Assembly: GCA_029258795.1 (NCBI GenBank)
Contig: JAPDKB010000004.1
Coordinates: 62,001-126,000, forward strand
Length of the DNA stretch: 64,000 nt
Direction: 5' to 3'
Source of the DNA: an archaeon
Lineage (GTDB): Archaea > EX4484-52 > WAPT01
Shown here: piece after piece, positions 1,497 through 38,813 of the stretch
Layout: the number at the start of each line of letters is the position of its first letter
Numbering within the stretch: position 1 is the first letter of the stretch
Position numbers and translations under genes: made by a program
Notes under the pieces: generated by a model
Told to the model about the DNA's origin: nothing
Seen by the model: the letters and a program-made list of their open reading frames with translations, nothing else
Database searches by the model: none

Positions 1497-1601
1497 GGGG
1501 CCGTAGTGTAGCTTGGTTATCACTCCAGCCCGGGGCGCTGGCAACCCCGGTTCAAAAGCTAGGTTAAAGCGGTAAAGCTGAAAATCCGGGCGGCCCCACC
1601 A
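1497..1601 (+). tRNA. tRNA-Pro(GGG), CCA encoded, interrupted by a T-loop intron
   Basis: Acceptor GGGGCCG/CGGCCCC, anticodon stem CCAGC/GCTGG with loop CCGGGGC, T-stem CCCGG/CCGGG, discriminator A plus CCA. Confidence 0.92.
1557..1584 (+). other. predicted 28-nt BHB intron in the tRNA-Pro T-loop (position 59/60)
   Basis: CCCGG-TTCA-AAA-GCT...AGC-TGAA-AAT-CCGGG: outer helix = T-stem, central helix TTCA:TGAA, 3-nt bulges AAA and AAT. Splicing gives TTCAAAT. Confidence 0.87.
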
Positions 1602-15113: not shown

Positions 15114-15189
15114 GGGCCGGTGGTCTAGGGGTTATGACGCCGCGCTTACAACGCGGAGGTCGGCGGTTCGAATCCGCCCCGGCCCACCA
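15114..15189 (+). tRNA. tRNA-Val(TAC), CCA encoded, no intron
   Basis: GGGCCGG/CCGGCCC acceptor, CCGCG CTTACAA CGCGG anticodon arm, GGCGG TTCGAAT CCGCC T-arm, ACCA. Confidence 0.97.
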
Positions 15190-38702: not shown

Positions 38703-38813
38703 GTCGGGGTCGCCTAGCCTGGTAGGGCGCGGGCCTGCTAAGCCCGTGGCCGTAAGGCCGCGCGGGTTCAAAAGCCAGCAAGCTTGTGGCTGGAAGTCCC
38801 GCCCCCGACGCCA
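38703..38813 (+). tRNA. tRNA-Ser(GCT), CCA encoded, interrupted by a T-loop intron
   Basis: GTCGGGG/CCCCGAC acceptor, CGGGC CTGCTAA GCCCG anticodon arm, long variable arm GGCCGTAAGGCC, T-stem GCGGG/CCCGC, G discriminator + CCA. Confidence 0.94.
38773..38796 (+). other. predicted 24-nt BHB intron in the tRNA-Ser T-loop (position 59/60)
   Basis: GCGGG-TTCA-AAA-GCCA-GCAAGCTTG-TGGC-TGGA-AGT-CCCGC; splicing gives TTCAAAT. Confidence 0.88.

Follow-up and report, generated by a model that had tools for sequence, protein, structure and literature searches.

How does a transfer RNA (tRNA) gene come to hold extra nucleotides (nt) inside its T-loop, and is such an insert an oddity of one gene or part of a wider pattern? 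The question is raised by the tRNA-Ser(GCT) gene in a 64,000-nt stretch of archaeal DNA (assembly GCA_029258795.1, contig JAPDKB010000004.1, positions 62,001 to 126,000), referred to here as the window. The gene lies on the plus strand at 38703-38813, has its CCA encoded at 38811-38813, and is interrupted in the T-loop by 24 nt. The insert is very probably an archaeal bulge-helix-bulge (BHB) tRNA intron at position 59/60, found in a lineage in which such introns have been copied among the T-loops of different tRNAs.

Structure of the insert in tRNA-Ser(GCT)

Apart from its T-loop, the gene has the parts of an ordinary tRNA, including the acceptor strands GTCGGGG (38703-38709) and CCCCGAC (38803-38809), the anticodon GCT at 38737-38739, and G73 at 38810. 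The T-stem, formed by GCGGG (38762-38766) and CCCGC (38798-38802), doubles as the outer helix of the BHB and encloses a T-loop of 31 nt (38767-38797) instead of the normal 7. Within this loop, the exon strand TTCA (38767-38770; tRNA nt 54-57) pairs with the intron strand TGGA (38791-38794) as a 4-base-pair (bp) central helix that includes one U.G pair, while GCCA and TGGC form the inner helix. With a 3-nt bulge on either side of the central helix, AAA at 38771-38773 and AGT at 38795-38797, the insert is a strict 3-4-3 BHB. The BHB cutting rule would place the cuts after 38772 and 38796, defining a 24-nt intron at 38773-38796 and a spliced T-loop reading TTCAAAT at 59/60. The loop length, insert, bulge, central strand, and spliced loop described in the initial annotation of this DNA are thus all borne out by the sequence.

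Such a structure is rarely reached by chance, as shuffled 24-nt inserts formed the full central helix with at least four inner pairs at P = 0.00043. Given the unspliced gene, ARAGORN reported only a truncated gene at 38706-38786, and the Rfam tRNA model scored it below the cut-off; after removal of the insert, ARAGORN returned a complete tRNA-Ser(gct). The exons are 100% identical to those of the orthologs in two congeneric genomes.

T-loop introns across the genome and its relatives

The source genome (G000; 1.17 Mb in 23 contigs, 96% complete) and its two congeners (G001 and G002) were surveyed with the Rfam model RF00005, a structure model of the intron-containing T-arm (R1), and a scanner for whole interrupted genes, which required TTC in the T-loop. 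T-loop inserts were found in 30 of the 46 archaeal tRNA genes of G000, a count that leaves out four bacterial-looking tRNA genes on contig C11 and from which a few genes, e.g., Lys-TTT, may be missing. The corresponding counts are 9/37 in G001 and 10/38 in G002, and several inserts occur in many relatives of the same order. The proposal of the initial annotation that T-loop introns are a lineage-wide habit therefore holds more strongly than it was stated, and the survey it suggested of the tRNAs of this genome and its relatives does return other tRNAs with such inserts. In G000, the introns are 24-52 nt long and interrupt every gene found for Ser, Pro, Leu, and Glu, the sole genes for Cys, His, Asp, and Trp, and one of the two for Met.

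The inserts share their architecture far beyond chance. The 4-bp central helix is present in 27 of the 30 G000 inserts (0.86 expected from shuffled inserts), and a strict BHB, with three or more inner pairs in addition to this helix, in 21 of them (0.05 expected). Across 20 T-loop-intron tRNAs, aligned from sequences chosen for a visible inner helix, the pairs of the T-stem and of the inner helix covary strongly, and TTCR is identical in all T-loops found with a scanner that itself demanded TTC. Nearly all spliced sequences are read as tRNAs by ARAGORN and most unspliced ones are not; ordinary tRNA models miss or truncate most intron-bearing genes of G000. The R1 model matches the intron region of tRNA-Ser(GCT), which is itself part of the model, at G000:C4:100762-100802 (E 9.6e-9). 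Searching with the loose pattern GGTTCRAA-N-TCC proved useless by itself, with 45 matches in the genome and 54 for the reversed-pattern control.

Beyond the genus, order relatives yielded 0-8 matches to R1 at a cut-off of E 0.05, and some unrelated archaea up to 13 among 34 fully scored genomes. As R1 was trained on G000, it favors this genome in comparisons, and the matches elsewhere stand at the level of the model and not gene by gene. A run over 394 genomes, in which 16 candidates were scored per genome, under-counts, giving 14 for G000 instead of 30. T-loop introns are thus widespread, and G000 is the extreme among the genomes scored.

The window offers a small sample of this pattern. Two of its three tRNAs share the architecture, as the initial annotation had noticed. 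The second is tRNA-Pro(GGG) (1497-1601, plus strand, CCA encoded), with a 28-nt T-loop intron at 1557-1584 and an R1 match at 1546-1590 (E 1.7e-8); its orthologs are intronless in both congeners. The third, tRNA-Val(TAC) (15114-15186, plus strand; ARAGORN and the Rfam tRNA model), is uninterrupted and serves as the internal contrast; it likewise lacks an intron in both congeners.

Empty and filled sites in congeneric genomes

For 15 of the 30 intron-bearing genes of G000, both congeners have an intronless ortholog whose exons are 91-100% identical. The Pro-CGG site is also empty in the sole congener where an ortholog was found, and the Ala-GGC and Glu-CTC sites are empty in one of the two, while no congener ortholog was found for Asp-GTC and Glu-TTC. 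Intronless orthologs carry an exact 7-nt T-loop, and removal of the intron at 59/60 reproduces this loop, an argument for the splice points that does not depend on the BHB rule. Each of the ten loci tested keeps one or both flanks beside the same tRNA (65-84% DNA identity). Intergenic spacing differs by 0.4-1.1 kb, in either direction, at about six of these ten, leaving room for small insertions near, yet outside, the tRNA. About eight isoacceptor sites are filled in all three genomes, including that of Ser-GCT, with introns of 24, 37, and 38 nt in the three species.

An intron family shared among isotypes

When similarity was scored without the parts constrained by the BHB, 11 G000 genes and four congener genes fell into one family. 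Its G000 members are Ala-CGC, Cys, Glu-TTC, Gly-CCC, Gly-TCC, Leu-CAA, Leu-CAG, Met, Pro-CGG, Pro-TGG, and Val-GAC; a separate pair is formed by the introns of Thr-GGT and Ala-GGC (81% identity). Across isotypes within G000, introns reach 81-100% identity, and individual pairs of the family include Leu-CAA/Leu-CAG (100%), Ala-CGC/Val-GAC (93%), Glu-TTC/Gly-TCC (84%), and Cys/Gly-CCC (82%). In contrast, introns at orthologous sites of G000 and its congeners are only 40-69% identical, although their exons are nearly or fully identical. Since copies in different isotypes are more alike than orthologous ones, the most similar copies are younger than the split of the congeners. The suggestion in the initial annotation that introns spread into a fixed T-loop site is thus well supported for the 11-gene family and the Thr-GGT/Ala-GGC pair. 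It does not extend to the Ser-GCT intron itself, which belongs to no family, occupies a site common to the three congeners, and is 54-55% identical to the orthologous introns; this intron is an older, genus-wide member of the habit.

Introns at the canonical position 37/38 behave in the opposite way. They are 57-100% identical to their own orthologs, and none of 36 pairs from different isotypes passed the same threshold (best z 4.2, Met/Leu-CAA), showing that they are inherited and not shared among isotypes. The 37/38 introns of Met and Leu-CAA, the pair that is weakly alike (z 4.2), as well as that of Trp (loci L073, L021, and L158, respectively), hold boxes resembling TGATGA and CTGA, like those of C/D box guide RNAs.

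Introns also occur in the D-loop, namely in Arg-TCT (L018), an Arg gene on the plus strand (L017), and Val-CAC (L025). The two Arg D-loop introns are clearly alike, and the Arg-TCT and Val-CAC genes of the congeners lack a D-loop intron, making this a second, smaller spread at the D-loop.

Splicing enzymes and a possible mechanism

A single gene for the splicing endonuclease EndA was found, being the only PF01974 match at E<=10 in the 96% complete genome, and a repeat search again returned one. No gene for a second (beta) subunit was found in these searches, where a very divergent beta subunit or an assembly gap is still possible. The protein has a single domain with conserved residues of the catalytic region. 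It is 88-90% identical to EndA of two metagenome-assembled genomes (MAGs) labelled 'DPANN group archaeon' (WAPT01, JALVWC01) and about 60-70% identical to the next relatives, from MAGs labelled Nanohaloarchaea, Aenigmatarchaeota, DPANN, or archaeon. Its fold, as modelled for the 90%-identical ortholog from G002, is closest to Methanocaldococcus jannaschii EndA 1a79 (TM 0.77/0.86), which is also the second-best sequence match. This EndA is of the alpha type and would probably act as a homotetramer. The initial annotation had offered, as an alternative to spread, an endonuclease adapted to this position, heteromeric or of broad specificity, and the single alpha-type gene does not bear this out. 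Two features distinguish it from the M. jannaschii enzyme in an alignment. One is an NPYKKG stretch; the other is a short run of extra residues (GKWIEEEKV) by the CSL/ASL site, close to where the EndA proteins of Aeropyrum and ARMAN-2 carry specificity loops. A link between this extra loop and wider specificity is only a lead, yet such specificity may be needed, as nine of the introns are not strict BHBs. Elsewhere, some genomes with several T-loop matches have a single short EndA (G103, G303, and G336) and others fused types, and no enzyme type is thus exclusive to them. Nanosalinarum sp. J07AB56 (GL982567.1) shows two EndA loci (L115 and L116) about 4.4 kb apart on one contig, identical at the residues compared, reflecting either duplication or an assembly effect.

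Together with the one RtcB gene found, this EndA suggests how the inserts may be removed. In the T-arm of the precursor tRNA, exon nt 54-57 (UUCR) would pair with the end of the intron, with a 3-nt bulge at either end of the helix; EndA would cut in both bulges, and RtcB would join the exons and restore the 7-nt T-loop. Judging from tRNA anatomy, the T-loop would also be a universal landing site, as UUCR is present, nearly unchanged, in every tRNA, and one intron ending in a UGAA-type strand would form a valid BHB in any tRNA gene. A 37/38 intron, unlike a T-loop intron, would have to match its own anticodon. Such a difference would account for spread at the T-loop (and D-loop) and its absence at 37/38.

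Alternative explanations

It is highly improbable that the inserts stay in place, either as enlarged T-loops of mature tRNAs or as marks of pseudogenes. Splicing is deduced from sequence comparison and a plain energy fold lacks the central helix, as this explanation would have it. Yet the BHB covaries, intronless orthologs have the exact 7-nt loop, and EndA and RtcB are present; pseudogene status is not credible because, for many isotypes, no gene was found other than interrupted ones. Another explanation, that the inserts are ancient introns lost by most relatives and not recent gains, fits the minority of sites filled in all three congeners, Ser-GCT included, and many order relatives do retain a few T-loop introns. 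It does not fit the family, where copies that are 81-100% identical across isotypes, compared with 40-69% between orthologs, require copying after the split, and congeners with 9-10 T-loop introns stand against the 30 of G000. As an account of the inserts in general, this explanation is therefore quite unlikely. Several observations nevertheless weigh against copying of spliced BHB introns among T-loops. The intron from which the question arose has no relative in other isotypes, and in its minimum-energy fold the T-stem and an inner helix of five pairs are present while the 4-bp central helix is missing; folding energy gave no signal for the inserts, and the BHB case in tRNA-Ser(GCT) rests on comparison. 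Nine of the 30 inserts depart from the strict BHB, while efficient removal of introns with a relaxed BHB is ascribed to (alpha-beta)2 and epsilon2 enzymes alone (PMC6379350). Finally, splicing would follow from the structures as read in the genome, and gain is favored over loss by within-genome similarity and low counts in relatives rather than by gene-by-gene outgroups.

If copying among T-loops took place, the step may have occurred at the level of DNA or RNA. There is about an even chance that it was ordinary gene conversion or recombination between T-arms through the conserved GGTTCRAAT flanks, with no dedicated transposition. With no reverse transcriptase found in an RVT_1 search and no integrative element recognised, this would be the simplest route. 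Leu-CAA and Leu-CAG have identical introns, variable arms, and T-arms, as conversion of the 3' half would give, and spread at the DNA level is also the published guess for Thermoproteales (PMC4090602). However, the shared flanks are very short between isotypes with different T-stems, such as CCGGG in Ala-CGC and CCAGG in Val-GAC, two genes with introns that are 93% identical. It could be speculated, as a rather doubtful alternative, that the short BHB introns are a site-specific mobile RNA element, re-inserted as RNA into T-loops by EndA and RtcB and then fixed in DNA, with the T-loop favored since every tRNA supplies an identical exon half of the BHB. The T-arm is a usual attachment site of integrating elements, and T-loop introns could instead have been selected for blocking integration of mobile elements into tRNA genes. 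In PMC3218864, such a role is quoted as a proposal of Randau and Soll for tRNA introns and split tRNAs. This seems unlikely here, as the sole integrase-family gene found (G000:C7:47627-48121) lies between tRNA-Thr(TGT) and tRNA-Gln(TTG), whose spacing is kept in G001, and may be a XerA-type housekeeping recombinase; no integrative element was recognised either, though intergenic spacing differs at about six of the ten loci. With only this gene, in a place of conserved spacing, insertion driven by an integrase was rejected.

Other tRNA-like genes

Contig C11 (9256 bases) carries four uninterrupted tRNA genes (Thr-TGT, Tyr, Gly-TCC, and Thr-GGT; L072, 1-1200), most without encoded CCA, in an arrangement usual in bacteria, and the contig is probably bacterial contamination of the MAG. 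A tRNA-like sequence at L016 (1501-1571) is read as Gly-TCC, has A in place of the T of position 33, lacks an encoded CCA, and exists beside an intron-bearing Gly-TCC (L022). A sequence at L067 (69-196) resembles tRNA-Glu in its acceptor and T-arm, carries a long insert around the anticodon, and is possibly the missing Lys-TTT or a pseudogene.

Comparison with known systems

Among the published non-canonical intron sites, 59/60 is listed mainly for Crenarchaeota and Nanoarchaeota (PMC4090602). The introns described here share the position, BHB rule, and similar length of the published ones but occupy about two thirds of the tRNA genes, in a DPANN genome whose one EndA is of the alpha type. A partial search of the literature gave no report of T-loop introns in this DPANN group. 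With both filled and empty forms of at least 15 orthologous sites, and with one recognisable intron family, the three congeneric genomes make the gain of tRNA introns directly testable. The case also has a practical side, as such genes are missed or cut short by the usual tRNA finders, and the tRNA sets of DPANN archaea are probably under-counted.

Mass transposition of tRNA introns between isotypes has been described in Thermoproteales (PMC4090602; PMC4033280), where very similar introns occur across isotypes and were gained after species split, as here. Homologous introns across isotypes and empty orthologs are both found in G000, while the Ser-GCT intron shows neither. Compared with Thermoproteales, the introns of G000 are concentrated in the T-loop, with some in D-loops, and the 37/38 introns are inherited. 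Expansions of non-canonical introns on a comparable scale are known from Pyrobaculum, with 21 in the 46 tRNAs of P. aerophilum and more than 70 introns in P. calidifontis, which holds more introns in total (PMC3218864). However, Pyrobaculum introns are scattered over many positions, while those described here sit essentially at one. Like the alpha4 enzyme of M. jannaschii (1a79), the EndA found here has a single catalytic subunit, differing in the few extra residues near the CSL/ASL site and the NPYKKG stretch. Mass gain of non-canonical introns is linked in reviews to endonucleases of the (alpha-beta)2 or epsilon2 type that carry special loops (PMC6379350; PMC12397907), and the present case runs against the rule that such gain goes with heteromeric or epsilon-type enzymes. 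While 59/60 introns and mass transposition are known from Crenarchaeota, an extreme expansion at a single position, in a DPANN archaeon whose EndA is of the alpha type, is new.
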